Positions 23,405 to 58,367 of a stretch of DNA of 64,000 nucleotides are shown piece by piece (position 1 is the first letter of the stretch; every line of letters starts with the position of its first letter). The DNA is from Branchiostoma lanceolatum (lineage: Eukaryota > Chordata > Leptocardii > Amphioxiformes > Branchiostomatidae). The notes below the pieces were generated by a model. It had not been told where the DNA came from and made no database searches. It saw only the letters and a program-made list of their open reading frames with translations. The stretch lies in contig NC_089724.1 in the NCBI RefSeq assembly GCF_035083965.1, positions 32,430,352-32,494,351 of the forward strand. Direction: 5' to 3'. Made by a program: the position numbers and the translations under genes.

Positions 23405-24580
23405 ATGGCGCGAAATTTGCCTGACAATGGTCAAGTTGTCCGGATCTGTGAGATTTTCCAAAGAGGATCCGAGGAGTTGGACGGTCAAGCCGTGCGTGTG
23501 ATGGGGAAGTAAGCCAGGCTTTAGATAATTGCAATAAATCTGAGCAATTACGCAGAGGGAATTTCAGGTTTAACTTTCATTTTGTACGACCCCTTTTTCA
23601 AGGGGAGGGGGGCTTTTGGAAAGATTGGCCTATAAGACTTATAATAGCCTGGAATACAAACCTATTGGGGAGACTATTAAAACAGTTACAATAAATGCCA
23701 GTATTACAATGCATGTTGCCCTATGGGAGGGCCTGCATGGGGGGGTCCCGACAACGCTCTACGCTAAATTCGAAGGGCCGGCTACGTAATACGCTAAATT
23801 CAGAAAGCCTCCCAACGCTCTACGCTAAATTCAGAAAAGCCTCCCTACGCTCTACGTTAAATTATGGAGTGGTCGGCAACGCTCTACGTAAAATTGAAAT
23901 GCCCGATTACGCTCTACGTAAAAGGGGCATGCAGGCCCTCCTATGGGGAAGTGAAGAAAAAGAAGGTGTCATTATCTCAGGAATCAAAACAACAGACGGA
24001 ACCCCCTTAATTTGTCACGCCTTCGGCGCTCGTCATAGTGAATATTTCATCTCAATTATCTCGCCCACCCCCCCCCCCCTCCATACAAAATTTCGTGCCG
24101 CCGCCTCTGTATTGGATACAAAGTTAGGGGCTTTAAACTAAATCATGTGTCTGACTGTCAACGCTCTACACCAAATTAAGTAAGGCAGTGGCAGTAAATT
24201 TACATTAAATTATATATTTAGGATTGCAGGCCGTTTTTTTACTTAAAGAGTCCATGAATTTTGTATGTATCTTATTTTCTCTTGCCAGATTGGAGACCCA
24301 TGACATTGTTGTCTGCACTGCCGAGTTGTCCAATGTGGAGCGGACCCAGAACAGCAGCCCACACCAGCAACTGACTGTCAACACGAGGCTCATCGAACCA
24401 TTTCAAGCAAGACTCGGTTCAATCTTCCAGATGATCGGAGAGACTGAGTTCACAACACGTGGTCCTCTTCTGCATGCGCGACTCGTCAAATGTGTGGACG
24501 GGATAGACACTGCAGTGTACTATAAAGTCTTAGATATGCAAAGACAATATTTTAAGCAAAGACTGGTCCTCCATGTCTGA
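23405..24580 (+). CDS. TEN1: TEN1, CST telomere-maintenance complex subunit (two exons)
   Basis: Exons 23405-23508 and 24289-24580 join in frame (34 codons plus 2 nt, then 97 codons and TGA) to give 131 residues; human TEN1 has about 123. Exon 1 encodes LPDNGQVVRICEIF and ends in VRVMG, matching the family's N-terminal LP-G-V and RTFGRL pattern. Exon 2 carries DIVVCTAELS, NTRLIEPFQARLGSIF and ARLVKCVDGID, matching LVCTKLVEPFHAQVGSLY and ARVLTCVEGM. TEN1 is a single OB-fold protein that stabilises the CTC1-STN1-TEN1 complex for telomere C-strand fill-in. Donor is gtaagc, acceptor ttctcttgccag. The start context CAAGATGGCG resembles the YY1/TISU-type initiator of short 5' UTRs. The 780-bp intron holds a 212-bp MITE with an 8-bp target duplication. 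A SINE begins within about 40 bp of the stop. Confidence 0.9.
23728..23939. mobile_element. 212-bp MITE filled with a degenerate ~25-bp repeat
   Basis: Ends AGGGCCTGCATG and its complement CATGCAGGCCCT are flanked by the exact 8-bp repeat CCTATGGG (23720-23727, 23940-23947). The interior is some seven variants of acgctctacgctaaatt. It lies in the TEN1 intron. Confidence 0.8.
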
Positions 24581-26830: not shown

Positions 26831-26884
26831 TTCAGAAACCATGGACGGGTTGCTTGCTTGAGTGGCCCAATTGGACATTTTTGG

Positions 26885-26994
26885 TATTCTCCAAGCAGAG
26901 GCTTCGATCGAGAGGGGTAGTTTTGTCCGGGATTTTAACGGTAAAATCCCGGACAAAACTACCCCTCTCGATCGAAGCCTCTGCTTGGAGAATA
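26885..26994. mobile_element. Perfect 110-bp hairpin element, CTCTCCAAGCAGAG family
   Basis: Arms of about 53 bp are exact complements around a 4-nt centre near 26939. Ends are TATTCTCCAAGCAGAG and complement. The flanks are an exact 9-bp repeat CATTTTTGG (26876-26884, 26995-27003). Confidence 0.85.
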
Positions 26995-27258
26995 CATTTT
27001 TGGAAAGTCAGAAACATGAACTGAACAACTTTAGTCATAGATGAAAGGCCTGCTGTAGCACCTAAATGTTTATGAATCAAAAGCATTTAGCCTAACAATT
27101 CTTTGTATAGAACTGCAAATATCTGCTGTGAAGCTTTATTCTGATGCAGATCAAAATCTGTCAATCACTGATACAACAAGAGAGATCTGTCCATAACTAA
27201 TATCCTCATTTCTGTGCGATGACAGCTGGCCTGATTGAATATTTTTGATGGTGTGCAG

Positions 27259-27721
27259 TAGTGCTGCGTACCGGTTCTGTGTACCAGTACTGTACCGTAA
27301 AAAATTATTCGGTACAGGTCCAAAATACTGGATCATGAAGTACCGGTATTGTACCCATATGAATTTACACGAAGTATTTGCTTATTTTGTGACTGACCTC
27401 ATGCAACACCAAACGTGACCAAAGTGATACCTTGGAACAGAGTAACTAATATGCAACAGGTCATTCAGGCAGGCCGGGAGTTTTGATAGCATTTGGCATT
27501 TTAGGCCAAGGGAGTTTGGTGGTAGGAAACTTGTTATGTTTTTTGAATAAAGATACATGTACTGACAAGTTGAAAACAGTTTATGTTTTTGTCATTGAAG
27601 AAGTTCAGAAAAACACATGTTAATTTTTCAAATTATTCGGGTACAGGTACAGGTACGGACCTGTACCTAAACCCCTGTACCGGTACCTGTACCTGATGTT
27701 ACATCTAGGTACGCAGCACTA
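27259..27721. mobile_element. hAT-type MITE with 8-bp target duplication
   Basis: Ends TAGTGCTGCGTACC and its complement GGTACGCAGCACTA are flanked by the exact repeat GTGTGCAG (27251-27258, 27722-27729). 463 bp. Subterminal regions are rich in GGTACAGGTAC-type inverted words. Confidence 0.85.
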
Positions 27722-27734
27722 GTGTGCAGGATGA

Positions 27735-31318: not shown

Positions 31319-34300
31319 ATGGACCTGACCGTCTGTCAACAGCTGGAAAAGTTAGTAGAAGATCTGACTACCAGCGGGCAGCATCAGCTGGACAAGGCCA
31401 CCGTCAAGACACTGAAAAAGATATGCAAGTAAGTCTAGGCAACCTTACAGGGGCGTATTGTAGAATTTGTTTGCGGGGGGGGGGGGACAAATGCCGGCCA
31501 ATGGTCTCTTATCGCGGTCTTCATTTTCAGGGCCGTATTCTTGGAAGAAGATAAACACGCCCTGTAGCACTTCATGAGGGTCTGCATGGCATGCTCTTTT
31601 CAGTAAGGTGTAGGCAGGCCCTTTTGATTTCGCGTAATTTGTAGGGAAGATATTTTCTTCTACGTAGTTCGTAGGGAGGAGGTGAAAATTTCCCGTAAGT
31701 CATAGCCAATTTGACTATCCTCCATTTTTGTACGCGGCCCGTCTTGGAGAGCTTGCTTTTGGGTCAACTTTTGGGTCAACTCGATAAATTTCATCTTTGT
31801 TGGGATCTGTTACGTCCCGTAGCAACCGCTCCATTGGCGCTAGTGCAGCGCCATTGAAAGTTTAAGACTTCATCTCTTCAGTCCCTTAGCGATTTGGTCA
31901 TGAAAGTTAACTTTACATCTAGATGTACAGAACAAAGTGGAAACAACGACTCAAATGCGCTTGGTTTGATTTGATGACATTTACATCAGACCAGGGGTGT
32001 TAACAATCCACAACTTGGCCGTCATTGGCTAATTGTCGGTGACATTCGGTGACCTGCTAGCAGCCATATGATTGGACCTCGCTAGAAAATTACTGCCCAA
32101 AGTTAAGAGTACACAGGGGGGGTGTCAAAAACTAAAAATATTCAGAATTTGAAAAATGTACATTCAGATTCACTTTTGTAACTAACGTTAATTTGTTACT
32201 TCTTTGCAACACATTTTATCACAAAATTCCATCATTAACGGGGGGAATCCATAGTCTGGTAAAGTCCATATTCTGGTAAGGTTTTAAAAATCAATGTTGC
32301 AGAGATATGCATGGGTAGCTGCACATGACAAATTCACCTAGTTATGGGCCAAACCTCCATGTAAATAACCACTAAGCTGGAGTATGTGTTGAAGTTGGTA
32401 AGCCCCAACGGATGAAGATTTTAAAAATTGCACAAGTTTGACGCCTTCCATGCAGGTTCATGAATGAACGAATTGAGCACATGGCCTTCGAAACTCATTA
32501 ATTGTTCATCGTAGAATACATGTGAAAAGATACCACAACATATCGGAAGAGTATTTATTAGACTTCCTCTAAAAACAAACCTACATCCCGTCTTTGCCTT
32601 TAAAGTTGGATAATCAGAGTTGAAATGACGCCGCAGTGTTCATCCTGTCGCTCCGCCATCTTTGCAACGTATGAAGGCAGCCAAAAGATGCACTACACGA
32701 TTAAGTTAGTCAACCCGCTGTTAGAGCAATATTTGGATCCTCCCCGGTAATAAACGACGAAAAAGCAAAACGTGCAAATCTGGCTTATTTGCATATTATT
32801 TATGGTCCCCTCCAGGAATAGTATGCAAATAAGTCAGCCGATGCTAAGAGTTACCCAAATCGACTGTTGCGGTCAGAGATCGAGCATCACAGGAAAATCA
32901 CCACAAGTTGACAAACTTCAGAACGTCACGCGTTTGATCACGTGTTCGGTGGTTCGTCTGAATGTTGGACAAAATGGCAAACAAGTCAAGCGGCGGTGGG
33001 AATTGCGTATATAATATTTTTTCCAAGACGTTCGCACGACACTACAAAGTTTCATTCATACGTGACGCATATCGTTGTGCAGTGTAATAAGGTAGATTCA
33101 AGATATGATGTCGAAAAATAACCAAAAACAGTGAATTTTGATTTATATTCCCATTACAATACACCCCTTTAAGGTGGCAATATGGTTCTTTAATTGTGAT
33201 GTTTTATTTCAGCATGGAATTAAGTATCTTACTATATATTATTAATATAATTTGCTTGTTTATGTCATACAAATTATGTGTCTATTATAAGTTTAAACCG
33301 TGTACCGAACGTACCGCTTGTGGTAAACTATAAGATTGCGATGGGCACAACAACATTGATATTAGAGTACTGTATTCACAAACCTTTGTATTTACAATGT
33401 TTATAGTGTGAACGTTTTATTAAAACACTTTATGGAGAAATCAATGCTATTCCATAGCTTTTTGTCCGTCAAGGTCTTTAAAACATTCCCGCGATAGACA
33501 GCAAAATCCGATGTCACCACACACTTGAAAATGAGGCGGTCATCATGGGCAGGGATTGTGCTCTGTCTGGTCCCAATTTGCCGGTCGCGGTCGCGTTGGA
33601 CGTGTGGTCGCCTTGGACAGGCCGCTTAATGCTTGTTCCTATGGGGAAAATTTTAGGGACCAAGAAAAAGCGGTCGCCATGGCTAGGTGGTCGCGTTGAA
33701 GAGGTGGTCGGTCGCCTAGGCAGGTTTGACTGTAGTCATTTTCACAGAGTCGAGTGAGGATATTCGTGTAAACTGCCTTACCCAAGGTAACATATGGGGC
33801 CTGCTAGGGATTTAAACCCATATCCTTTCAATTCTAGATCTACTTGTACTTCAACAACCCTAACCACAAGACCACTTATATCAGTACTTAAAAATCTGTC
33901 CACATTTCTGAGACATTGTCAATGCTTGCCACCCACAGGACATCAGATGAGTATGTGAAGCACACGTATCACCTGCTGAACATGCAGCTGCAGAAGGACC
34001 ACGCTGAGATCAGGCTTTCAGCGTTCCAGACAATGGATGAACTCTTCCAGAGGTCCCACGCCTTCAGGGAACTGCTCATAGCAGAATTTCAAGTACGTTT
34101 GTACAGTATAGATTGTTAGGGATGTCCCTACAGCTCAACTGGTAGCAGGCTCACAGTTGAGTTCCTGGTTCCAATTACAGTGTAGTTGCTAACTGGGAGA
34201 CTCTGGTTCAAATCCTGGGTCAGGACATCTTGGTTGGGGTTGCACCTGTCTTTTGGACGGGACATAAAAAGGGGGTCCCATGGTCAAAGAAGGCTGGCGA

Positions 34301-37300
34301 CTAGTGCTGCGTACCTAAACGTAACATCAGGTACAGGTACCGGTACAGAGGTTTAAGTACAGGTCCGGACCTGTACCTGTACCTAAGGACACTATATAAT
34401 GTCCTTGCTGTACCTGAACAATTTAAAATATCAACTTGTGTTTTTCTGAACTTCTTCAATAATGACAGAAACATAAAGAAACTGTTTTCAACTTGTCAGT
34501 ATCTTTATTCAAAGAACATAACTAGGTTTCCTACCGCCAAACTTCCTTGGCCTTGCTATCAAAACACCCGGCCTGCCTGAATGATCTGTTGCATATTAGT
34601 TATGCTGTTCCAAGGTGTCACTTTGGTCATGTTTGGTGTTGCATGAGGTCAGGAGATCAGTCACAAAATAAGCACATACTTCAGGTGTAACTTTATGTCG
34701 GTACAGTACCATTTCATGATCTTGGTATTTTGGACCTGTACCTAATCAATTTTTACGGTACAGTACCGGTACTGTATCAGCACTAGTACTACTATACTAG
34801 CAACCCCTCCCTGTTAAATTGCTATATAACCTGCTACGGAAAAGTAACAGCAAGGGAACTTGATTCAGACTTTGAAAGATAATTACTGAAGAAGGGGTTG
34901 AGGGATCGTCATGATTTTCACTATGTAGATAGCTTGTACTAACACTAGTACTAGTACTAACAAAAAATACGTTCATTCTGACCCACGTGCTTAGTGGCAC
35001 AATGAACATATTATCTGTTAGCACTAGTGGAGCAAGGTATCTACATATCAAATCTGTAACAAAATCAGCCCTTACACTTCCAAAAAAACTACTGGGGGGG
35101 GGATTAAACCAACAGTCCAACACCACTTACAATCACAACCACAGCATATACAGAACATGGAGTTTCCCTGCATTGTACTGTAGAAAGCTGATAGGGGACC
35201 CATTATCGACCTTGAGCTTCTTTTTCCGGAGCCCTACCCACCTACCAAATATCATTAGGATCCATCCACAGCTTCTGGAGTTATGCTGTCCACAGACATA
35301 CACACAAACGACACCTTAACATTTAAAGTGCATAAGACACCAAAATACAACATTTTCTTATTTAAGTTATTATCTGAAATACATGTAGGAATAGCATCAT
35401 TCAATGAATATAAATGTTTAAAGCAAATACACACCCTTCTGATGTTATTTAACATTGAACCATCAGAAACCATACTTCCATGGATCCAGCTCTTTATTCT
35501 TATCTGATCTTCTCACCAGTTAATTACATTAATCAGTGACTTGCCCACTCATGACGTCATAATGAACACGGCAGCCAGTTCGGAACCTTACACCAAGGAG
35601 GTTTGCTTACACCACGGCACGGCTTGTGAAAAACATTATTTGATGAGCAATCAGTGTTTGATTATCGTGAAAACATTCAATTAAAGGACACAACAATATT
35701 TATTTTGTTGATGAAGGTTAGACATCCAGGTAATAAGATACGCCAAAAATAATTACTCAAGCAACTGGATAAGATTTTGAAACAGTCAGACGTTTCAGAC
35801 AGTATCCACTGTCTTTCGTCAGCGACTAACGATAGGCTCCCCTTCTTAGACACCAAAACCATCATAGAGAAGGATGGCAACCTTCAGTTCGAAGTGTACA
35901 GGAAACCGACCCACACTGATCAATATCTGGCCTTTGATTCCCATCACCCTTTGGAACACAAACTAGCAGTGATTAAAACTCTCTTCCATCGAGCAGACAA
36001 TGTCATTACCTCAGGCGAAGCAAAAACAGAAGAACAAAGACATCTCCGTGTGGCTCTAGCCAAGTGTGGCTACCAAAATTGGACCTTCAACAAGGCCCTC
36101 AAACCTTCTGACCAGTCTAAGAAAACACTCAAGTGCAGACCATTGACCAACAGAAACAAGGTCAACATTACCATTCCCTACGTCCAAGGAGTATCGGAAA
36201 AACTCAGACGTATTTTCCAAAACTTCAACATTGCCACTAACTTCAAACCTCACTCAACTCTCAGGCAGAAACTAGTCCATCCAAAAGACAGGCCTGAAAA
36301 AGGCATCAAAGCCAATGTCATCTACAAACTGAAATGTGAGGAACCGAACTGCAATAACATGTACATTGGAGAGACAAGTCGACCACTAAAAGAAAGGTAC
36401 AAGGAACATTGCAGAAAGAGCGCTAACCGCTACTCCTCTGCCATTTACCACCATCTAAAACACAACCAGGGACACTCATTCAATTTCGAATCAACGGACA
36501 TCCTAGATCGTGAAGAACGCTGGTTCGAACGGGGAATTAGAGAAGCAATATATGAGAGGATGTACAACCCCGCCCTCAACAGGAAAGGCGGTCTACGCGT
36601 TCAACTTTCAGGCACCTGGGATAATGCACTGCCCACCACCCCCCACCCCCGGACAAGCAACATTTAGTTACTGTACTAGAACAACAGTAGCTAATTGAAC
36701 TATTGGCATAACTTTGTCTTGAATTAATCTTCTTTTTGAAGACTACTTCAAGACATCCTAAATTGTCTTTACCTCATTAACATATCCATTCAGAGTTTTG
36801 GTATAAAGCTGGTGTTCTCAGTCCTATCGTTAGTCGCTGACGAAAGACAGTGGATACTGTCTGAAACGTCTGACTGTTTCAAAATCTTATCCAGTTGCTT
36901 GAGTAATTATTTTTGGAATATTTATTTTGTTTGCTTCTAAAAATGATGTTCTTTCCGAGCCGCAATTCCAAAGTTCCAAATCGGCTGCCATGTTCATTGT
37001 GAAGTCATGAGTGGGCAGGGCACTGATTAATGTAATTACCTGGTGGGAAGAATTAACAGCTGGAGGTATGATGTTATGAAGGGTCGATGTTAAATAACAC
37101 CCGAAGTGTGAATATTTTGTGAAAATTTCTATGTTATTAAACAATAGTATTATGGTTTATGTAATTTCAGGAAATTCTTAATTTTGATGTTAACCTTCTT
37201 GGCAAAGGTGACAAATATCAAATATAGAAACAGAAGTTATGGCTGTTGTTAGGAAGGTATTGACATGTGTGCATGTAAAAGGACAAAGACATTTTCATCT

Positions 37301-40300
37301 GAGAGAGTTTAAAAACATCTTATTCCAGTGACTGTATGGCTTGATTTGATACCTTCAGGAATTCCTGGAGCTGACTGTGGAAAGCAACTACGACTTCCCA
37401 CTGCCACCTCCCAAGGGAGCGGCCGATAAGCTCAAAAAGCAGGCTCTTCAGGCCATCCAGCGTTGGCAGGAGCAGTTTGGCGAGGCCTACAAGAAACTGA
37501 CTCTAGGCTATAACTTCCTTAGGTACAACAGAAAGGTGAGAACTGCTCAACTCAGACCAGGCTTTAAGCTAGGATGCAGGGCATCCAAAAATTGGAGGAG
37601 GGGGCAGACCTCCACAATGGGCTCTATGGATTAACAATTACCCAGTAGCTTTGCATGTCAATCAATTTCATGCTGTCCAAGTGTTTGGTATGAGGAAAAA
37701 ACAACAGTGGGGGGGGGGAACACATGTACCTACCTAACCTACCTACCTAGTCCGTTGACCTCCGGGTCGTTGGGGGGACAAGGTGGCTATGAAAATGGAC
37801 ATCTGTCTCCAGGCTCGTCTGTTTCTTGCGGCAGTCAGCCTTTTGGCCAGGCTTGGGGACGTCCACTCTGCGATACACCTGTATGAAATTACCAGTGAAA
37901 TAGGGTGTCCTCTATCTGGTGTCCCCTGCAATCACGGGCTTGTTTTTGGTCTGTCTGCTAGAGACTTGTTCACCCTATATTGGTCAATGGACACATGTAA
38001 TATCAATCAACAACCATATCTGCGTAATTGATGAACTACAAAATCAGTAACATGTTAGAGCGCGTCACAAGTTAGGGCACCCCGTTAGTACCTAGAATGG
38101 GGCAATACAAATGTATGTTTCAAACGTCTGTCAGTTCCATTGCAACAAAATTCTAGATGCCGTAAAAAGGCATTTGCACATGTAGAAATGGTGATTTCTA
38201 GGAGGTTATATAACCTCCTTGGTGATTTCGAAGTCAGCAGAGACAGCATTATTTGGTCACAGTCAGTCTGCTGCATGATTCAGGGGACTCCAGTGCCCAG
38301 TGTATGGGAAACCTTGTCTCTGTGTTCTTGATGTGCTATGCAAACCCGGGTCTAAATTCATAATGATTTTAATGTTGACACCAGTGTTAGTTACTGTTTT
38401 ATTGAATACAGGGATAAAAGACTTGTTGGTTGTAATACCATGTTTTATTGCTTCAATTCTTCTTACATGCTTTATGGTATTCAAGTTAAAAAATGTGGAT
38501 ATCTTTTTTTGCCCGCCTTGTTTTTTTTTCCGCCCTTCGCGCACTAAATTTGGAGTCTGCAGAGGACGTCATCAAAATTATCAGAAATAAATAGTCATTT
38601 TACCTACATTTTGTGTGCATTTTCAGGTTGATTTTAACAACATTGCAGCCAGCAGTAATGTAGAGAGGACCAGACAAGAGCAGGAGCGGGCCAGGATACA
38701 GGCTATTAAACTACAGAGGGCCAAAAATGCACTCAAGGAAATGGAAGGTGAAATAAAAGGGATGTTTTCATTGTTTGTCTTGCATCCTTGGAATGTACAT
38801 ACATGTAGGAAATATACACTATATTTTTCAAACACTAGTTAATTCTCTCTCAAGTGCTGTACATCATTGCATTTAAGTTGGTGATTTTGATTTCGCGGTA
38901 GGGAGAAAATGGAGTAGTCATGATTGCTTTTCGTTCATGGTTCCAGGAACAAAGGTACAGTAGTTGGGCAGAAGGCAGAATGAGCATTATCAGTGTGAAA
39001 ACTGCAAACGTTAAACCACCGTGAACATAAATGTATTTAAAGTACATTGTACTATTCAACTTTGAGTGGCTAGATCTAAGTAACTGTTAACACTGGAATA
39101 GAAGTAAAGTACGGAAAATAGAGGTATCAATACATGTACCATAATATGAAGCTGCAATAGCGACCCTGCTTCTGGACGGGAGGTTGGGAGTTCAAATCCT
39201 GGCTATTGTCGCTCGCCTAATTGCAGTCCTTAGGATGGGACGTTGATTCATGGTCCAATGTTCATTGTGCTTGTCGAAAAAGGCTAGGATTTCCCCAGTA
39301 CAATGAACCTGTAATTGCCATGCATTTATCTGTATTCTGTCATGACCAGTGGATGAGTAGCTCTTCAGTGAGCTAAACTGGTCCGAGATCAGTTTCATTT
39401 TTTTTAAATAGCCTTAAAGTCACATTATTTTATCTATTTATACAAACGTGCATTATTTGTAACATCTGTTTTATTTGTCTATCTTTTTCAGAAACAAAGC
39501 CAGAGATAGATGAATGTTTGACTCAGGCAGAATCCTGCTTCCAGCTCCTAGTGCCTCGCAATGATGCCATGGATTTGAACATCACTCCACCCAAGAATGG
39601 GGACCAAGATACAAACAATACTCTACCCACTACTTCACATGGATGGAAGCAAAGTAGAAAAGAACAGCATGGAAAAGATATCAATAGTGACGTTTTTATG
39701 AAAAAGGAGCAAGCTAGAGTCCAGAAGCCGCTTATAGGGGAAGGTTCACTAATGTCAGGGGATAGAGAAAGGGTTAACGATGGAGATTCCCTGAAAGTCT
39801 CTACTGGGGATGGGCAGGAGGGAGACAGTGAGGAGGACAGTGATGATGATGAAGAGGATGTGGTGAGGCACCATGGACTTGGGTCCCACAAGTACAACAT
39901 CAGTATAGAGTTTAACCCAGGTGAGAGATTGGGGCATCATATGTATAAATGAGCTTTACATAATGTACACAGAAAATATTTCTCAATTCACAGATTCAAA
40001 ACAAGCTGTCCAAATCTACACCATTTCTTCATTACATCAAAACCTATCTGCCCCCAAAAAAACAAACTTCTGCATGTAAAAGAAATCAACACACTTATCG
40101 AGAGAAGTAGGGGTGACCTGATGTGCTTGGCTAAAAATGCGAGCCATAGCAAAGCCACATTGCACTACTAGTTACTGGAAAAGGCATCATAGTGTCTTCA
40201 CCTCAATTGAGGATGACAAAAGAATGATAGTATTCTTATCTTGATAATAGTGATGAGCATTCTACAGGAAAATTGATTTCCAGTCATGTGTTTAGTTAGT

Positions 40301-43300
40301 TTTGAGACCGATGGGTTTGATTATCTGTTTGTACATGTATCTCTTCAGATGATTCCGGGATTCGCGAGGACAGAGACAATGCCGACATCATGGACACTCT
40401 ACGAGACATGAACAAGTTGATAGTCGGCAGGTTTCAGCCAGCAGTGGGAAGGTGGCTTGAGGTGAGATCTCTAGATTTCCCCATTCTTAAGACTCTAATC
40501 AGTTCTAAGAGGAAATATTGACAAAATATGTTTGATTAGAAACCGAGGAGAAATAGATTTTCAGCAACTAGTCCTTTGCTGCAGAACTTGCCATGAAGGT
40601 CTGTATGGTGTAAAAGGAGAGAGAAATGGTTTGTTGGAAGTGATCACAATGAACAGAAAATTATAGTCTTGGTCATAATTTGTCTGACTCTTACCTCCTT
40701 ACTCATCATTTCAATGCATGATTTCTCAAGGATAAACAAATATTCAAACAAACAAACAAAGTTGGAATATTGAGTCCATTTGAGGATTGATTTCTGTGCC
40801 CCAGGTTTTTTCAAAAGCCGGCACAGAACAAAAGGAGATAAAGAGGGCCATCGACATCAAACAAGCTCTGACGGCTGCATCAGAGAAATGTGCCGAGTTG
40901 GGCATCCTCGCAGAACAGAAGACAAACAAACAGCAACAAAAGGAAGGAAGGAAGGGAGGTCAAGATGACAGCAGTGACGACGATTTTGTTGAAGTAGAGG
41001 AGAAGGAGGGATACGAACCCAGGATCCCCGATGCTCTTAGAGCAGAGTACGGTATGGACAGTTTGTAAACTACATGTATAAGGCAAATGTCAGTGATTTG
41101 TAATTGTGGATCAAAGTCGAACTGTAATTTCCAACCCAAAAATTTGACTTACAATGTATCCAAATTTTCGACTGACCAACTCCAGTCTTTGTCAAGGAAT
41201 GAGCAATCCACTGCTCCTGTCACGTCACGTTATGCAGATAGAACATGTGTCTTCGTGAGCAGTGGATCATAAGTTGCAGAAAGTTGGGGGTGGGGGGGCT
41301 ATAGACTTTCTGCAACTTATGATCCACTGCTCACCGAGATATGTGCTCAATGATTAGTAAAGACTGGAGTAATGTCTTAATCGCTCTATTCCTGTTTTTT
41401 CAGGGTTAGAACCAGCCAAGTCTGAAACAAAGACTAAGCCTAGTGCACTCAAACCTAGAACAGTGCCTGCACCTGCATCTACAGCTGCTGCATCTGCATC
41501 TGCCGCTACAACTTCGGGAACAAAACCTCCCACCAAAAAATCTTGGCATCCTTTCTTGAGTGGGGACAACAACCCTTCTGACCCAACCTCTTACAGCGCA
41601 GCACTGTCTACAGCTACACTCCAACCTAGCCAGGACAACAGGTCATTATTTGTTGTTGTTCACCTTTTAGTGCCTAGTGGCACATAGGGCAGCAAGTTTC
41701 CTTGCTGTTTCTGTTGCAGGGTATGTTACAGGGAGGGGTTGCTAGCCCTTCCCCTTTGATGAGGCACCTCCTCAAACATGGGACCTCCATTTTACGTTCC
41801 CTCCAAAGGACAGGTGCAGCCCCAACCGAGATGTCCTGTTATAATTTGAATGGATGTAGTTGACAGGGTAGAGATCCCAATCGGAGTCTCTGTGAACAGA
41901 GATTGTGATCAGGATTTATAAATCCTGAGTTTCAAGTCAATCCATTGATCTAAAGAGACATGAATTTAAGTTAAAAGTTATTTCAAAACAATTTTGCTGT
42001 CCGTGACGGACAAACATTTTGCTTGAGCTTTGAAATCAGTAACCACCTTTGATTTGAGACAAACATGAAAGAAAAGTATCGCTTCTATATGCAAAAGACT
42101 CCTGAAGTTTATACAAACATTGTGTGTTTCTGTCATCATTGAATACCACAGGTTACTTTGCCAAATTGTTCAGGTACAGATACAGGTCTGGTAAAGGTAC
42201 ATGTAGTTCCATAGCCTTTTTGAGGCCGTGGATGCAGTTTGTTGTTATTCACTGTGTCTAGGGCATGGTATCGGAAGGCAAAGCCTATCCCTCTGCTTTC
42301 ACCCTCTTTTACCTCCCCGACCGAGGTCACTCAGACACCCTTTGACGCCACTTGTATAAACCTCTGTACCTGATGTTATGTTTAGGTATGCAGCCCTAGC
42401 TGAGATGCTTCAGATGCCTCAGAGCCTGGTCTCCTGATCTGCAACTGTCTCTCATTTTATGCATTTTCTGTAAAAGTCTTTTGATATTATTTATTATTTG
42501 ACTCATCATTTTCAGGGGAGAAAAGAGGAAGGTAGGCTTTGATGCCCAACCCTCTACCTCAAGAGCTTCCCCCACAAAAAGGGAGCTGTTGGCTAAGGCT
42601 CCTGTGGTACCGTTTGGTATGGACCTGTACACATGGGGGGAAAAGGCAAGGAAGCCTACAATTGTGAGGTAAGGTGTGATCCAAGGTTGGGTATAAGCTT
42701 TTATGTCCTTCCTGGGCGATAATGCTGTAACATGTATATGTTAGATGTTTACATTTTTATCGTGGTTTGATGTTGCAGTTTTCATGGTGACCTCTTTATT
42801 CAACGTAAACTTAAAACACCACACAAATGCATGTCTTCTGCCTGCCTGCCACCTTGTTTTAACCACAAACACTCCATTTTCTCCTTACCGCAACATGAAA
42901 TTACAGTGAACTTAAATCATAAAATGCATTGATTTTACAGAAATCGTTCTGTAAAACAGCAAAAAAACATGTTTTCAGGTTACCTAGTTTGTTTGTTTGA
43001 GGCTTTATTCATTCATGAGAAACTCAAATCGGCCTGCTGGCTTCTTTTCATTGAGGTCATGGAAGAAGAGGTAAGGGTCAGATAAAATGTAACAAATTAC
43101 AGATTAGACACTTGAATCCGTACTAAATACGTAAACATATAGTCCTTATCCGAACACTATGTTATGTTATGTTATGTTATGTTATGTTATGTTATGTTAT
43201 GTTATAAGTTCATAAACAGTGTTGAATTCAAATGTCTTTATTGTTAATTTTAATAGGGACGAGTCCTTGCACAGGTTTTGGCGCCCGTCTGACGAAGGTG

Positions 43301-46994: not shown

Positions 46995-47160
46995 AGCTAT
47001 TGACAGAATAATCCTGTCAACAGTAGAGAAAATGCACTGTTGACAGGATGATCCTGTCAGCAGTAGAAAAAATTGCATTGCTGACAGGATGATCCTGTCA
47101 ACAGCTGTAAATTTGTACTGTTGACAGGATGATTTTTCCACTGTTAACAGAACTTAACAA
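46995..47160. repeat. Tandem ~42-bp hairpins with CCTGTCAACAG stems
   Basis: Three consecutive units of ATCCTGTCARCAG, a 12-15 nt AT-rich spacer and the complement CTGYTGACAGGAT. In the middle unit the stem change is matched on both arms (CAGC with GCTG). Confidence 0.7.
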
Positions 47161-47620: not shown

Positions 47621-47741
47621 CACCTAAGCCAACCCGTAGAGACTGGTGACCAGGCTAAACTTTGAAACTGGAACTATCGAACTACTAGTGTCGGACTACT
47701 AGTATCTTTTCTTGTTAGGGACACGCACACTTGATCAAACC

Positions 47742-47761
47742 AAGGAGGTTATAACCTCCTT
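47742..47761. mobile_element. 20-bp palindromic insertion with 9-bp duplication
   Basis: AAGGAGGTTA plus complement TAACCTCCTT. Flanks GATCAAACC and GATCAAACG (8 of 9 match). Confidence 0.7.
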
Positions 47762-47886
47762 GATCAAACGTTAGAATTCTTGTCCAGGCAATGTGCACAG
47801 CGGCGTCTCAACTGTAACTCATATCATTGTTATGGAAAGTTACCTTACATTAGTGCAAAGTCGGAGATGTGAAATGCCTGTAACGT

Positions 47887-48086
47887 TAGCGTCCTTCGCA
47901 GACTTCTAGGAGTGCTGGTATGTGTGTGCTTCGCGAATTTCAACTTGGGTCAGGTTCAAGATCGGGGGGCGCGGAAAGTATCTCCGCCAGCATTTAGAGA
48001 ACCTGGACCATGTTGAAAATCGTGACCCCCCCCCCCCCCCCCTAAAAATAAACGCCGGCGCTCCTAGAAGTCTGTGAAAGAGGCTA
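47887..48086. mobile_element. TAGCSTCC foldback element, diverged
   Basis: Ends TAGCGTCCTTCGCAGAC and GTCTGTGAAAGAGGCTA are inverted, then ttctaggag and ctcctagaa. It contains a poly-C tract (48007-48022). Confidence 0.6.
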
Positions 48087-48763
48087 AATTCACGGTCGTT
48101 GTCCTTGTCGTATGCTAATCACAGAATCTCCTTCTACCTAAGTATCTCTGCTAGGGAAGGTTTGCAGTCTGTTCTTCCTTGGTTTTATCTTAGGTCATCT
48201 AAGAGACTACCAGTTCCGTCAATGACTTCTAGTCCCCCCAACCGTCTAAAACTCTAATAAATGGAGAAAAGCCAAGCTGACTGCAAACTCTATCTGTTTC
48301 TAATAGGAAGGCTGATGGAAAGTAGACTTTTCCATTAACCCAAAGCGACCAAACGTTTATAAACTTGTCAAGCCAAGGAATCCTGCAAATGTCACTCTCC
48401 TTTTTACCGTTTTAAAAACAGCAGAACTTAAACTCTCCGAATATAAAGTTTGGAGCAATTGTAGATTGTAATTCATAAAGTGAATTTAGAAAATATTCTT
48501 TCTAAGAAGAAGTTAGCCAGGAATCAAATTATCAAAACCATACCATCGGGGGCTCCCCGATATCTCTACGGCGCTGGGAGGGATCCCCGCCCGCCCAGAC
48601 AGCTTAGTCCGCTCGGGGTGTGTTTACGGCCTTGGATTAAATTAGTTCGCGGCGGAACTCTCTATGGCAGCTTAAGTAGAAAGGCTGGGAAATTCTATAT
48701 GGCAGGCTGACAGAAACGGATCAAATATGAATAAAGCAGACTGTGCCCAGTAAAACACCCCCT

Positions 48764-49924
48764 ACCCTGGGAGTCCAGGCACCGTAATCGGATCCCCGCA
48801 CGCGCGCCCAAGCTTTCACGGCTCACCCTCCCGCTGCCCCCCGAAGACCGACCCCGCCCCACTCTCCGCTCAGACCCAAACTCCGCTATCCGATTACACC
48901 GCTATCCGATTACCGGCCTGGGGCAACGTCTCTTGCTGTCAGTTTCTAACACAGGATCTGTGCTAGAAAGTTCTTCGCGCTATTGGCCTGCCGGTAATCC
49001 CCGCACAGCGGGACGCCACGTGTTGATTGGGCGCATTTCTGTGGGCTTCTGTGGGCGAGGTCACTAATTCACAATAGAAGATAATGGCTGTGGCTGTTGT
49101 GTATGTTATAGCACAAATAAAGGAACAAAGAATGTTTGTGTATCATGTGAACTATACGAGGCCGGGGGGACTCACGTCACGCCCGTATTTACGCCATCGT
49201 CTCCCGTCCGAGCTTCCGGACATAACGAGCTCGCCAAAGGTACGTTTTAGCATTATAATTTAGCATTAATAATTCCTTTGATTTTAGCATTTCAGGACAT
49301 CAAAGTTTCGGACTACCATTGAGGGCAATCGTGTATACTTATTCTAGATTGGTATCAGTGATAGACATCGATAGAATAAGCTTGCAGGCGAAGGGAAATC
49401 TTTATTTTTGTATAGGTTTTATTTCAACATGTCAGAAATGTAATGAAATGCAATGTGAATATCAAACAGTGATGAAAGCTTTGGAGATCGCAGCGCCGCT
49501 TCTCTCGCCCACCCAGCGTATATTTACTTGACGCTGTTTGTCGGTTCCCGCCAAATTTCCACGGACGCCTGTTTTAGCGGAAGCGGAAATACAACACAAG
49601 CCCCTTGCGTAAGATGACGATCTGTGGTTCATGAATATTAAAACAGGCACGGGCTGATTCGCTGTCGCCGCAGGGTGGACGACCAATCCTGCCACCGTGC
49701 AAGCGGCTTCCAGCTGTGCGCGCGGCCATAAATCATAAGCACTTCTCCACCTCTGTGGACGGCCAAAGATACACGTGGCCCCAGGCTCCGTGATCGGATA
49801 GCGGAGCTTGGGTTTGCAGCGGAGAGTGGGGCGGGGTCGGTCTTCGGGGGGCAGCGGGAGGGTGAGCCGTGAAAGCTTGGGCGCGCGTGCGGGGATCCGA
49901 TTACGGTGCCTGGACTCCCAGGGT
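48764..49924. mobile_element. 1.16-kb element with ~150-bp GC-rich inverted ends
   Basis: 48764-48906 and 49790-49924 are near-exact complements (ACCCTGGGAGTCCAGGCACC end). The flanks are the 11-bp repeat AAACACCCCCT (48753-48763, 49925-49935). The 880-bp middle has no recognised frame. Confidence 0.75.
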
Positions 49925-50050
49925 AAACACCCCCTAGAGACTGGGACAAGAAGTTGTATTGGAGAGCAGTATTAGAATCCATATTTTAGATTAGAATTAG
50001 AAGCCCTGTCATTATAATTGAAAAGTATTGTACATGCGTTGGATGTAACC

Positions 50051-50084
50051 AAGGAGGTCATATAGACGTCTTTATAACCTCCTT
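50051..50084. mobile_element. 34-bp palindromic insertion
   Basis: Ends AAGGAGGTCATATA and TATAACCTCCTT. Flanks GATGTAACC and GATGTAGCA (7 of 9 match). Confidence 0.6.
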
Positions 50085-50331
50085 GATGTAGCATACGACA
50101 GGGTCGTACAAGCCATAAAAATGCCTGACGTAAGTCGCGCGGGGCGATACACACCCAGGGAAAAGGGCGACGTACGCCATTGCCGAACCTCCTTGGTCGA
50201 CTCGTACGTCCAGAAAATTTTCCCAGTGTGTGTATATCGGGTTGTGTAACTACTCTAGCCGAATTCTACAACCCCGCCCCCCCCCCCCCCCCACCTCAGG
50301 AAGGCCTGGTGGAGGCTACTTTATTACGACC

Positions 50332-50364
50332 AAGGAGGTTTAATCAAGCCTCCTTGCCCTCCTT
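50332..50364. mobile_element. 33-bp AAGGAGGTT insertion
   Basis: AAGGAGGTT at the left, two CCTCCTT copies at the right. Flanks ATTACGACC and GTTACGACT (7 of 9 match). Confidence 0.55.
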
Positions 50365-51364
50365 GTTACGACTCTGTACATAGCCAGTTAGGGCATGCAT
50401 GTACAATACAGGCTAGTCTGTATAACGCAAACTCCAGCTGTCCGGGGGTTTCTCTCCCCTCCCCGCTTGGGTTGGGAGCCGATTACAGGACGGCGAGCGG
50501 TCACAGGAGGCTTGATTGAATTCAGGCTAAATACAGGCTATCAATAGTTGTTTTTCGAATAAAGAAAAACACCGACAGATAATGAGCCAGATGTATTACA
50601 CAAAGCGCCGCTGGAAATCAATTCTTCGCACCTTACGCAAACTTCTCGCCTCGACGCCAAAGTACGTTTGTATTTAGAGGCTGGTCAATGCCGTTAGGGG
50701 AGTGTTGATGTCGTGCATATCACAAGTATCTTCACCCGGCCGCCTTTTGTAATGATGATGGTGGGGAGGGCATACCCGAAGGGCGCTGTCTTCTTCTTTC
50801 CTTAGAACATGACCCTCTTTCCTCAGCCAATCAGGAGCGTGTATTTCTTGTGATTATATCCACATAGTAAGGTCCCTTGGTACCAGGGGTGGACTAACCA
50901 ACGAATAAATTGACTAAAGTTGGAGACGCCCGCCCTCGGACTGCCAACAAAATCCGAGGGGGGTGCGGGGCTGTACCAAATCCACATAAACGAGCAATCC
51001 GCCCATCCTTTAACTATTACATAAAATATAATTTCACATCAAGCGGTGTTGTATCAGTGTCAAGTTCCGGCGGCGCCTTCTATCTTTTATCCGGCCTACT
51101 TCATATCAATTAACCGCTGATTGGAACTAGCCCCCATCATATTTTCTTTAAAAAACGCTTGTTATTGAAAATATCCGTATCACTATATATTAAAGCACCG
51201 GAAGAGTACTTCAATAAAATGGGTGTACATACATTAGCCTCTACCAGGCTCCATAATTTGCTGAAAAAAATGTAGAAATTGGCCAAATAGACCGTGGGTT
51301 GCGATTGCAAACTGTAGGGGCTATGCATTTACGACCGAAACATCTAGAACTTAGAAGACAGTGA

Positions 51365-52478: not shown

Positions 52479-55400
52479 ATGGAAGTGTCCGCTCTCGCTC
52501 CGCATCTTCCGTACTCCGTCTTCCGTCCCCATCCTCTCAACAGACCGTCCGTCCTCACGAGCTGTCCGCCGGCTCCTTACGGCCTGCCCTGGCCCTACCC
52601 ACCGACGTGTATCCACCCAGGACTGTCCCCTCTGGTCAAGCCCAGTGAACTTCCCGTCTTCTACCCCAGGATTGACTTCGGTCTCCCCACCTCCAGCGGG
52701 AAGCAGTCTCCGCTGACGGCCGACAGTCATCCTGTCCAGCCCAGGGACTCGTCCTCTGGACCCATCCCGGGGCTCCTCCCAACGGCAAGGGACCGACGCG
52801 TCCAGAACAGTCCCTCGGGGTCCGACAGGACGTCCCCGCGGGTACCGTCCACCTCGCCATCGCTGGAGAAGACTGCGAGCGACCGAGCCGAGTTCCGGCT
52901 GACCAAGGACAAGTCCGTGTCCGGAGAAGTGGACATCAGCAGCTGCAAAAGGAAGAGACCAGAGAAGAAGTTCCCGTGTCCTTTCTGTAAGGTGTGCTGT
53001 GCCAACAACGGACAGCTGAAAGGGCACTTACGGGTCCATACTGGTAAGTTATATACTGTATATTATATACTGTATCTTTTACGTGCGACCCGCTACATAA
53101 AATCATCACTAAAAGATCCTAAAAAAGCATTTGTTCTAGTAAAAAAAAACAATTCAACAACTCTTTGGCCATCTTCTATGCTTTCCCTCAAATATGCTGG
53201 GACCAGTTGTAAATTTACGGTACGGAAAGAAAATTTGATAATATTTTATCATAAATTTTTTACATTGCGGGAAGAAAGAATTCGTTGTGCCGATCCAGTA
53301 CAGAGACTCAAACAGTTGTCGCAAAAAGCCCCCACCCCCAAGTGTATCAAGCCTTCAGGAAACGTGTGTATCAGTCTCCCCGTGTCAAAGATACTTTGTG
53401 GAAACGCCGTAGAGTCCACACAAAAATGACTTCGCAAGTTGGCGCGATGTACACTTTGCACGAGGGAATGCGTCAGAACACATACTATGCATCTTGAACT
53501 AAACATGCCACCATTGGAAATCAATGTGTCGAATAATTTTTGTTGTACCTTACGACTTTTGCCGGAGTTTTACAATGTTTGCATTTGATAACGGAAATGG
53601 TGCGTGGCTGTCATATAATAATAATGATAATGATAATAATAGTCTTTATTGCATATTCCTGCCCAGATGGGCTAAATGTAGCCTCCGTTGCAGACTCTGA
53701 AGCGGCTTTTTGGGGGGCTAAATAATACACTTTTTGCAGCCACCCCGTAACTATCAGCCATCCTGTAACCATCAGCCGGCTGATGGTTACAGGATGGCTG
53801 ATAGTTACGGGGTGGCTGCAAAAAGTGTATTATTTAGCCCCCCAAAAAGCCGCTTCAGAGTCTGCAACGGAGGCTAGGCTAAATGCACAAATGACCATAT
53901 GTGGTCTATAAGAAGCGAACTGTAAAACATGAATTGATAGAAAACTACATTCTAACTTTGAAAAGTAAAGATTGAAACAAAACTGTGGACTATTGTTAAA
54001 CTAATGTTGATCACCTAATAGCTTCTTCTCTCTTTTTGAAACACTTGAAAACATAGCTACATACTTTGTCCATTATATATTCGTTCTCACATGACGAAAG
54101 TATCCTGCTTTGACATTTTTGTACATGTCTCAAATTCTTTTGTCTTAAACAGCGATTGGCGCTCATCTTCATATAAGGAACAATCGAGTAAAAAGTGTGT
54201 CTCATTTTCAACATATAGGTGGTCACAGAATTCGCATGTTCATAGTGAAGTTTTCCACGGCCACTTTGAAAACAAGACGAACACACTCCAACAAATCTTG
54301 ATCATTTCTTGATATGGTATCTACTGGTGTTTTCAGTTCAGAATGTCCTGAAGAGAAAAAAAGGAGAGCACTGAACGGATATCACGGGAAGTCACAAATA
54401 TGAGCACCCTCAATGCATCAATGTCTAACATTGGCGTTAACAGATCCAATTGTGCCCTTGACGGTCACACAGTGTTCAGAAAATTAAACGCTTGGCGCGA
54501 AACATCCGCAGACGACTGGTGTACGATTCGTCTGTATGGACGATTCCTCAGAAGAAGAGAGTAACATGCACATCGTCAAGCCCACCTTTCTCAAAGTTCG
54601 TTCGTCCTACAGATAAAGTAGTCAGTTGAACTTAAATGAGACGGCAAAGCGGCTTGATCGAATGACGGGACAGTATCTTATCTGCGAGGGGCTTGAGGTT
54701 TGAGTTTGGGGACGTGTTCAAGTCGGTCACGTCGCGTGCTTAGCGCCACGATCCCAGTAATTGCTTCACCATGGAAGGGCGAAGACACAAGTCGAGCTTG
54801 GCATAAGTCTCCATCACGTTAAAAAGGGCAAACTTTTCCATCTTATTTATAGTGTGTCAACTGCTCTTTGTACGTATGTTGGGCGCGTGTACATGTGGTA
54901 CAAGCACAGTTTCCACACGCAAAATTAAAGACACTGTCACAGTGCCGTGCGAGTTTAGAAAAGAACATATCCTCTGTCCTGGCACGGTGGATAGATTCTC
55001 TTCCAGCTTGTTCGAATTTCCCTTTTGACGTCTTTTCCTTAAATCATACCGTCTCCCAATCCTTTGACAACCCTCACGTACACACTAGATAAGGTCCGGG
55101 CAATCATTCGTCTGGAGTTGATAAGATGATAATGAAGAGAAATTGATGGTACCAGGAATGCCAAAAAAACAGCAATTGAGCTGCCTTGATGGAAAGAAAG
55201 ATAAGAAGTACAGTTGGACGGAAATGTTCGCGTGAAATATTGGGACGGACCCGTGACTATTGTTGTAGGTCGAAGGAACAAGTGTTCTGAATTCTCCGCA
55301 TCGCCACATCGCCACCCTGAGTGCACCGGGTCGGCAAAGCCTAGCATCCAAACCTATTTGATAGCTGCCGAGTCTCCAAATTTGACTTAGCACGCTATAG

Positions 55401-58367
55401 TAGAAGAACTTTATTGCGCGACAATTGTATCTGGTACAATGTATGGCAACGTACGCACATGAAAGTCGAACTATTGCTAATAGTTAACAAATGACTGTAC
55501 AAAGAACTAGTCTAAGCTATGACTAACACAGGTTTGAATACCAGGCACTAGCACTGGAAAACTCAACACTAAAAAACTGTCAGACTTTAGTATTTTAGTT
55601 TTTTGAAACTGCCACACTAAACATCGTAGACCCGCTCCACGCTTGTTCTGTAGTACTAGACATCGTAGTCTACTTCTTTTATAGACTACAGCTTTGTTCT
55701 GAGTGTGTCTACTAGTACTACACTCTTTTGTAGTAGACTTCACTTCATCATAGTTCGCTTTACACTCAAAAAGCTGTAGTACTAGTATACGAGAGAAGCA
55801 GACTACGATGTCTCGTACAACAGTTTCCACAAACAAGTGTAAAGTCTGCTAACGCCTTGTTTCTTGGTGCGTGTAGAGTACTCTCCAAGCAGAGCATGGG
55901 TTTCGGCTGGTTTTTGCCAACCCAATTTTGGCTATACAAAAAAAAGATGACAAAGTAGAAAGCCCGACAAAAACACCTAAAAACACGTCAAAAACTAGCC
56001 GAAACCCATGCTCTGCTTGGAGAGCAATGTAGTGTTGTTCAGTGCTACCCTGGTAACCAAGCCTATGATAAGTCTTGTGCAGAATCTTTATCTACGATGG
56101 CTTGTGCGACGGTTTAAAAAAAGTGTAAAGCAACTCAGAACACTCGAGCACGACAGACAAACTATCGTTTGTAACTTTGTTAATAAGTTCCTAACATCTA
56201 CAACTCGACTGTTAATGGCTTTTCCGGCTTACTAAAATATACCGCTTGAAGCCTCGACTATCGGAACCGTCGGGGGTTTGAGGAAGTTTGACAGGGGCTA
56301 TAGGGCTGGATATGGGCTACCCTCTTACTGTCTTTCATTAAAAAAGATTTGGGTTTCCGTGACCCAAGATAATCTGTTTTGGTCGGAACGCTGGGAATGA
56401 CGGTGGGAGGCCGGCGGAGTTGTCCCAGATAGAGATAGTTACGTGAGGGGGAGCACTCCATCGAGGCTAGCCGGGCCAGGCTTGAGGCGACCAGGGAGTG
56501 ACCTCGAGGGCACCCGCCCTAGATCAGGTCGGGTTTTATTGACGACTTTAGGTAATCTAACTTTTCAACAAATCCACGGGGGAGTCGAGTTCTAAATTGT
56601 CTGCTAGAGAGTCGCGGGAATGAAGAGCAAGCTGCTGGACGAGACCGAGAGAGGCACGGTATCTATACCAAGTGTTGACGTGCCCTACCGTTCACCCGTA
56701 GCGGGGAGGGAGGGAGAGAGGGGCGGGAGGGCTAGACTTACCTGGTGACTCCGGAGTCAGCTCGGCAAAAGTGCCAGCCACGGGCTCGGTGATTGACAGG
56801 TGGGTTGGCAGATTCAGGGCGCGAGCTCAAGAACAGAAGCTTCCGACTTTATTTGCGATGGAGGGGAGATGAGTTTGGCCAGAAAACCTTCTTATCTGGG
56901 ACTGCTTTGCGGATTAGACACAATTTCAAGTGCATATCTCTAATGGCATCTTGTGTGGCGTGAATGTTGACATACTGTGCCTTTGACCAAGGGCGGCTAT
57001 GATTGAAAAGCCCTTTTGCCAGTTGGATACGGGCTTTGCCACCGTTAGATTTGCTTGGAGATTATATAGGGTATGAAAGTGTGGTCAGTAGCTGAGGGGG
57101 CGGGGGCGGACAGAGGGCGGGCCTCTCTCTCACGGTCTCACGCCACCGGTGACCTTTGGGGGTCCACGGTTCACCGCTTATAGGGCTATAAAGTTAACAA
57201 CGTTATATCCCGAAGGACGCACGTCTGCCTTTTGTAAACTGCACTGAAAGATAAAACTGAAGAATGCACGGAAAAAATACCAAAGGTGTTGATAGTGCAC
57301 TGTAGCTTGGGTGCCAGCCTTTTTAGCTTACGAACGCTACCCAAGCTCCGCTCCTCGCTTGGGTAGCGTACGTAAGCTAAAATTGTAAAAAGGCTGGCAC
57401 CCAGGCTAAGTGCACTGGACTAGTTTTGTATAATCTCCAAATACCGTGAACAGTTGGTCTGCACGTTCTTGTCTTTTATCCTTAAATACACTTACAGCAT
57501 CCCCCCTACCATTACTCATCAGTTGAACGGCTCCGTGGCAGTTACAGCCCAGATGGAACTTCAAATAAACAGAGAAGAAAGCTACCACATACAGCGACAG
57601 ACAGGCAGATCAAAACAACAACAAAACAACAACAACAAACAAAACGGCAGAAAAACGAGTTGAGAGCGCCGTTGATCTTCTGAATGACCTTTAGTGAAAA
57701 GTTCTTCAGTTAGAAGTGTGGTTACTAAATTATCTTTCCTTAGAGAAGTTACTAAATGATCAACCAATGGCTTCTGGTATTAATGTTGTATAAGATCAAT
57801 GATGTCAAATGTCAAACTTTCTTGAGATGTCTGCTCAAATTAATTCCTCTGTTCCTGAAAATAGCCCGATTTATCACATTCCCTACTGCGAGAAAACAAC
57901 GTGATTTGCAAGAGATCTATAAAAGTGATCCGGAGCAGGTGTGTGGAAGATTGTAGCTCGGGATGTTTCCGACGCAGCACGCTGTGCCTGGGCGGACACC
58001 CGCAGCTGTAAGTTATCCTCTCTCAACCTAATTGAGCCAATCTGGGCCGGCGGGCTGTCCACGTCTCGTGTGCCGAAGGAGCTTCGGAAGCCCATCCTTC
58101 ATCTACCTGTTTTGTCCCGAGCTTTATCCTCTTTCAAAACTTATAACAAAAATGCCCATGCAGTTCCAAAACAAGCTGCCAGGAAGGAAGTTTAAACTTA
58201 CTAGTATCTGATTTCTGCCCGTGCACATTTGGTTATGCGAAAGATACAAAAACTGCAGAACCATAACAAGCCGCTGGGAGGCCCAAAATCATCCCATCAA
58301 GACAATCCATCAAGGCCTTCTTGAATTACCGTGTTCACACACACACACGCACGCACACACACAGTAG

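Follow-up and report, generated by a model that had tools for sequence, protein, structure and literature searches.

In Drosophila, excision of the P element leaves breaks with 17-nt 3' tails of the terminal inverted repeat (TIR) beside 8-bp target duplications, and the repair junctions recovered from such breaks have been tabulated; 68 junctions were sequenced, and the rows shown in Table 1 of that report total 66 (PMC2895639). Fourteen AT joins and five TA joins gave perfect palindromes of residual TIR between intact 8-bp duplications, three (CAT)G joins were lopsided, others hold insertions with nearby templates, and 20 of the 66 were long-microhomology joins with little of the repeat left or with flank lost (PMC2895639). 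The 17-nt stagger is one of the traits by which P is described as differing from other characterised cut-and-paste transposons, and P elements favour nearby targets, at about 50-150 kb (PMC7776569). Galileo, which belongs to the P superfamily, makes mostly 7-bp duplications within a range of 7-8 bp, with the consensus GTATTAC (PMC4168063). In S2 cells, larger flanking deletions are reported to accompany excision by zebrafish THAP9 (PMC10983969). As to natural P-type excision scars, no survey was seen among the literature matches listed.

Here we describe seven short sites in a stretch of 64 kb (the window, i.e. the whole of the DNA that was analysed), in which no parent element was detected, and compare them with these systems. 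The seven sites and one possible half-site are as follows.

Site A, 38191-38228: target duplication GTGATTT on both sides of CTAGGAGGTTATATAACCTCCTTG (38198-38221), with 12+12 nt of TIR.
Site B, 47734-47769: target duplication ATCAAAC on both sides of CAAGGAGGTTATAACCTCCTTG (47741-47762), with 11+11 nt.
Site C, 50043-50092: target duplication ATGTAAC/ATGTAGC (6/7) around an insert at 50050-50085 with 18+18 nt of TIR, an imperfect palindrome with the centre GACGTC.
Site D, 50324-50372: target duplication TTACGAC around an insert at 50331-50365, parsed here as about 10 nt of filler plus a duplicated CCTCCTTG end.
Site E, 35587-35612, plus strand: target duplication CTTACAC around the insert CAAGGAGGTTTG (35594-35605), lopsided, with 10 nt of TIR at one end and 2-3 nt at the other.
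Site F, 34377-34414: target duplication CTGTACC around the insert TAAGGACACTATATAATGTCCTTG (34384-34407), with 12+12 nt of the TIR variant CAAGGACATTAT.
Site G, 60077-60100: target duplication GTATGAC around the insert CAAGTCCTTG (60084-60093), lopsided (4+6 nt), with an insert of only 10 bp the shortest of the seven.
Possible half-site H, 50185-50195, minus strand: CAAGGAGGTTC, with the second target duplication absent; not counted as a site.

Site F came from a scan, made without a preset motif, for palindromes flanked by duplications; site G came from one for 7-bp direct repeats whose inner ends are complementary. The search for the seven sites demanded intact duplications, so that footprints with flank deletions would have escaped it and the spectrum of repair seen here is biased accordingly. 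CAAGGAGG, at 569 and 61733, stands without a duplication and was taken as chance.

A sequence-only reading of the same DNA had described a 22-bp palindrome with a perfect 9-bp target duplication at 38190-38229. The sequence there is GGTGATTTC + TAGGAGGTTATATAACCTCCTT + GGTGATTTC; the palindrome is real and its flanks are equal at 9/9 positions, but the perfect arms AGGAGGTTAT/ATAACCTCCT are 10+10 bp, one base longer than had been given. The four further sites of that reading are likewise present, at 47733, 50042, 50323 and 35586, but their 9-bp flanks agree at only 8/9, 7/9, 7/9 and 8/9 positions, and the site at 35586 is non-palindromic, with a single half-site. Site A is the only one of these five to reach 9/9. 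When the boundary is shifted one base outward, a 7-bp duplication appears that is exact (7/7) at sites A, B, D and E and reads 6/7 at site C; sites F and G, which lay outside the earlier reading, show it at 7/7 each. The common register of the seven sites has CAAGGA...TCCTTG ends, some of them mutated or shortened. Pooled over the seven sites, 48 of 49 flank positions are equal at a duplication length of 7, whereas all other lengths from 4 to 12 match at 18-26%, and length 9 from the CAAGGA boundary at 13/63. At 38190 a G stands 5' of the left copy and a C 3' of the right copy; the match of 9/9 arises there because the two extra bases are the element's terminal C and G, by coincidence equal to the flanks. 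A 9-bp target duplication is in the length range typical of Mutator-like elements. For the short sites the 9-bp register was rejected because of the pooled 7-bp match and because site A alone reads 9/9, and with it falls the proposed link to a Mutator-like transposase.

Twelve of the 14 ends read CA, the exceptions being the left ends of A (CT) and F (TA); in E and G one end is shortened. Point differences aside, one sequence, CAAGGAGGTTATAWAGAC, supplies the arms of A, B and C, each of which is a prefix of it; the variant repeat of site F, taken from its right end CAAGGACATTAT, is unlike CAAGGAGGTTAT at two positions. Four joins are symmetric (A, B, C and F, with 11-18 nt per side), two are lopsided (E and G) and one holds filler (D). 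In A, B and F, all symmetric, the centre of the join falls in the TATA/ATAT of CAAGGAGGTTATAWAGAC, as read from the sequence. In the six filler-free sites the retained TIR does not exceed 18 nt per side; at site D the retained length hinges on the parsing. Hairpin folding was obtained for sites A, B, C and F (z -4.4 to -5.9), as it would be for any palindrome, and tells nothing about origin.

The motif AAGGAGGTTA with at most one mismatch occurs 18 times in the window, against a shuffle mean of 4.6, and none of 100 shuffles reaches 18; several of the 18 matches have no relation to the seven sites. Palindromes with an exact duplication of at least 7 bp number seven, where 200 Markov shuffles average 0.07 and reach 2 at most, and comprise sites A, B, D and F, two long hairpins and one CA/CG microsatellite. 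Under a looser palindrome rule 15 rows were obtained against a mean of 3.5 and a maximum of 11 in 40 shuffles, so that the strict rule of at least 7 bp matters.

Before the direct-repeat, 256-end, 6-mer ranking and motif-control counts, low-complexity 7-mers were removed. Across the 256 four-base ends X...X' (8-60 bp apart, exact non-simple 7-bp duplication) CAAG accounts for three of five matches. For the 58 CAAG...CTTG pairs 8-60 bp apart about 0.004 exact 7-bp duplications are expected, and three were seen (B, D and G). With one mismatch allowed, CAAGGA gives six matches (A, B, D, E, F and G), against a maximum of two for 59 permutations. Among random 6-mers, 2/500 reach at least six (TTACAT 17, GCCAGG 6); four matches are shown for each, and seven of these eight fall within tandem repeats near 43.2 and 29.4 kb. 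When 4029 6-mers were ranked by downstream recurrence of the preceding 7-mer, CAAGGA reached 8/49, a count in which a palindrome can score twice since both strands were searched; the ten 6-mers that rank above it by fraction have at most five matches each. Short pairs (8-60 bp, each end with at most one mismatch) carry a duplication of at least 6/7 in 5/86 cases, where by our own arithmetic of 22/16384 per pair about 0.1 is expected. Longer pairs (61-10,000 bp, n=13,709) are near chance, with 7/7 in two (0.8 expected) and 6/7 in 25 (17.6 expected).

CAAGGA-type palindrome patterns were not found in viral contigs. In genome contigs the palindrome was met at two bacterial places, each time followed by a T run in a terminator-like arrangement and with flanks that match at 1/7; the palindrome alone thus brings no duplication with it.

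A dispersed repeat with TAGTGCTGCGTACC ends is present in the window in copies at 27259-27721 and at about 34300-34707, of which one has 8-bp GTGTGCAG flanks and the other hosts site F. The sibling copy provides the unoccupied counterpart of the site.

27540-27725, minus strand: empty paralog of the host repeat of site F, with a single CTGTACC (27640-27646) and without the palindrome.

The sibling reads ...GTACCTGTAC CTGTACC CGAA... and aligns on both sides of site F, where the sequence is ...GGACCTGTAC CTGTACC (24 bp) CTGTACC TGAA...; compared with the sibling, F holds an insertion that amounts to 31 bp net, made up of 24 bp and a 7-bp duplication. The alignment score is 286 with the insert and one copy of the duplication removed, versus 272 with both kept; the comparison was clear at site F only, the paired scores being 142.4 versus 139.8 at site E and 130.0 versus 127.8 at site A. 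The empty site belongs to a paralog within the window and is no allele of F; its target lies inside a GTACCTGTACCTG-rich stretch. A third relative of the host repeat (42121-42420) is too scrambled for such a comparison. The earlier picture of insertions with target duplications, reduced to the terminal repeat and empty inside, is supported by the sites and, for F, by this paralogous empty site.

We are confident that some DNA transposon, in the broad sense, left the sites as footprints of its excision, and they are probably the fossil footprints of a transposon that is P-type by mechanism. Their source would be a cut-and-paste element with the TIR CAAGGAGGTTATAWAGAC... and a sister type CAAGGACATTAT..., working like a P element; the ends of the parent would be CAAGGAGGTTATA or CAAGGACATTATA. 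Insertion of this transposon would have made the 7-bp duplication, and its transposase would later have cut it out with a long stagger within the TIR, so that each broken end kept a 3' tail of about 17-18 nt of TIR. As both tails would be of the same sequence with the self-complementary TATA/ATAT, they could anneal with each other, and sealing of the annealed tails would give a short palindrome flanked by two intact duplications; other breaks would have been trimmed unevenly (E and G) or repaired with filler (D). Such annealing may explain the joins centred at TATA/ATAT, and four symmetric joins among seven are unexpected from random trimming but expected if identical 3' tails anneal. The proposed tail length derives from the single site with 18+18 nt (C), which exceeds the 17 nt of Drosophila by one unless two bases were added.

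A TIR that starts with CA is a defining feature of the P superfamily. The Drosophila and zebrafish elements both have such a TIR (PMC2895639, PMC10983969). The duplication length (7 bp, where the superfamily has 7-8 bp), the CA terminus (12/14 ends) and the style of the junctions of the present sites fit this superfamily, and the junctions may reflect a cleavage inside the TIR with a stagger of 17 nt. Both copies of the duplication are kept, which is partly built in by the design of the search; the residual TIR of the filler-free sites goes no further than about the 17 nt of the tail, site C with 18 nt being one over; and the joins form a spectrum of symmetric, lopsided and filler types in which long-microhomology joins were not seen. 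In the Drosophila junctions, as here, duplications are intact in most rows with at most 17 nt of TIR per end between them, and 2-nt AT/TA palindromic joins, lopsided joins (as in E) and templated insertions (as D may be) occur (PMC2895639). Drosophila P is unlike the present element in its 8-bp duplication and CATGATGAAATAACATA ends, and its junctions come from excision provoked experimentally in spn-A mutants at a single locus, whereas the present sites are natural and dispersed (PMC2895639). The long-microhomology class of Drosophila P has no clear counterpart among sites that were found by their intact duplications.

Galileo shares the 7-bp duplication, and its consensus GTATTAC is near the GTATGAC of site G (PMC4168063). 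Six of the seven duplications end in AC, each turned the favourable way (post hoc p ~2e-5, both orientations allowed for), and the Galileo consensus likewise ends in AC (PMC4168063). The long, internally repetitive TIRs of Galileo (PMC3573991) form a body that is absent here. In the zebrafish Pdre2/THAP9 element, which shows P-like excision to be active outside insects, the TIR also starts with CA; it differs in its 8-bp duplication, its CATACCTGTCAAC ends and the flanking deletions seen in S2 cells (PMC10983969).

Neither a parent element nor a P-type transposase was found in the window. Exact CAAGG...CCTTG pairs up to 6 kb apart gave none with a duplication of at least 6/7 besides B, C and D, a test that itself misses A, E, F and G; a relaxed search of the window (at most one mismatch at either end, distances up to 10 kb) gave two pairs with 7/7, neither of which continues into matching TIRs. 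A longer parent within the window was rejected, as neither search yielded a convincing candidate. Low-complexity open reading frames (one residue at 25% or more) were dropped, leaving 155 of at least 75 aa, and in the 150 of these that were scanned no Pfam match to a P transposase or THAP domain was obtained at E 0.01; a P transposase fragment was rejected for the window on this basis. Literature matches to the end sequences included no transposon paper among those listed, so that no named family was matched.

The scan returned 15 families; RAG2_PHD (E 0.0022) and RVT_1 (E 0.009) are among them, each as one weak match. The reading frame at 35753-36664, which adjoins site E, has a weak GIY-YIG match of 20 bits, below the Pfam cut-off of 22.6, and may belong to a Penelope-like retroelement. 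Frames at 24209-24577 and elsewhere resemble exons of Ten1 (CST complex), UVSSA and C2H2 zinc-finger genes and are of animal type. Two frames of 146 aa with identical translations (6271-6711 and 8007-8447) are probably a recent local duplication.

That the footprints were left by a DNA transposon outside the P superfamily which also leaves its TIR behind, e.g. one of an undescribed superfamily with a 7-bp duplication, is the strongest alternative, though we give it a rather small chance. All of the footprint evidence, namely the 7-bp register, the motif controls and the empty paralog, serves it equally, and with no transposase of the P kind found in the window it is the length of the duplication, the CA terminus and the style of the junctions that carry the P label. 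A long stagger, on the other hand, sets P apart in the description of the review (PMC7776569), and 7-bp duplications that mostly end in AC agree with Galileo (PMC4168063).

The sequence-only reading had taken the sites for bare terminal repeats, far shorter than the usual MITE, and units of 20-36 bp moved as such by a transposase acting in trans would account for exact or near-exact duplications at every site and for the similar sizes of B, A and F (22, 24 and 24 bp). If one mobile unit had been copied, the inserts should resemble each other, yet all seven differ in sequence and E and G are without one full end, so that independently repaired breaks fit instead. Many near-identical short two-ended copies, as expected of a MITE, were not seen; the window holds seven unlike inserts in 64 kb, with varying arm lengths, two lopsided sites and one with filler. 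The end sequence needed by Drosophila P elements is moreover cited as 138 and 216 bp in a paper that gives less than 100 bp for the ends of P-related MITEs (PMC1562414). We consider mobility of such bare units unlikely.

Slightly less probable again is the derivation of the sites from longer inverted-repeat elements whose interiors were lost through failed gap repair or palindrome-centred replication deletion. Long perfect palindromes able to erode do occur in the window (53679-53876 and 26884-26995). Many sizes would then be expected, yet pairs with the present ends more than 60 bp apart are near chance for duplications, and the long hairpins differ in their termini and in having 9-bp duplications. 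Three such hairpins (26885-26994, 53679-53876 and 57303-57408; 106-198 bp) have exact 9-bp duplications, CATTTTTGG, GGCTAAATG and AGTGCACTG, and the ends TATTCTCC, TAGCCTCC and TAGCTTGG, which are unlike those of the short sites. We take these three to be Mutator-like from their duplication length. The 9-bp duplications noted before for longer hairpin families thus hold at three places, but the length is not one they have in common with the short sites; both kinds are inverted repeats with flanking duplications, and they differ in termini, size and duplication length. A link of the short sites to the TATTCTCC/TAGCCTCC hairpins was rejected because both ends and duplication length differ.

Two further inverted-repeat structures are present in the window. 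Three tandem hairpins ATCCTGTCAACAG...CTGTTGACAGGAT lie at 46997-47133, with a similar unit at about 22640-22741; their core CCTGTCAAC is also found inside the zebrafish Pdre2 TIR CATACCTGTCAAC, possibly by chance (PMC10983969). At 23728-23939, 212 bp with inverted repeats at the two ends are flanked by the exact 8-bp repeat CCTATGGG.

An accidental pairing of palindromes with direct repeats, or a hairpin with a regulatory or terminator role, could draw on the abundance of short direct repeats in the 64 kb (907 non-simple ones of 7 bp, spaced by 8-60 bp), on the terminator-like T runs at the two bacterial palindromes and on the hairpin folding of A, B, C and F. Both readings are contradicted by the insertion of F relative to its sibling and by the pooled 7-bp register; the shuffles, the motif controls and bacterial flanks matching at 1/7 only also speak against them, and their probability is negligible.

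If the sites are P-type excision footprints, their density deserves attention. Three of the seven (B, C and D) lie within 2.7 kb (47741-50365), and the preference of P elements for nearby targets could make scars cluster (PMC7776569). It is conceivable, though we hold it only tentatively, that the genome is a dense archive of P-type scars, which may exceed the elements manyfold in number and record, locus by locus, the repair of germline double-strand breaks with defined ends in the course of evolution; in the extreme form, excision may be so efficient that scars are the main genomic product of the element. For annotation the sites are a warning that palindromes of 20-40 bp with perfect flanking duplications can be footprints and not minimal transposons, and that counts of surviving copies can understate past transposon activity. 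P-element excision is used in the laboratory as a read-out of end-joining repair (PMC2895639). Many natural scars from one transposon with known ends would extend this read-out to wild germlines, with break ends, microhomology and filler readable from each scar, and the DNA of the window may thus preserve a record of chromosome-break repair.
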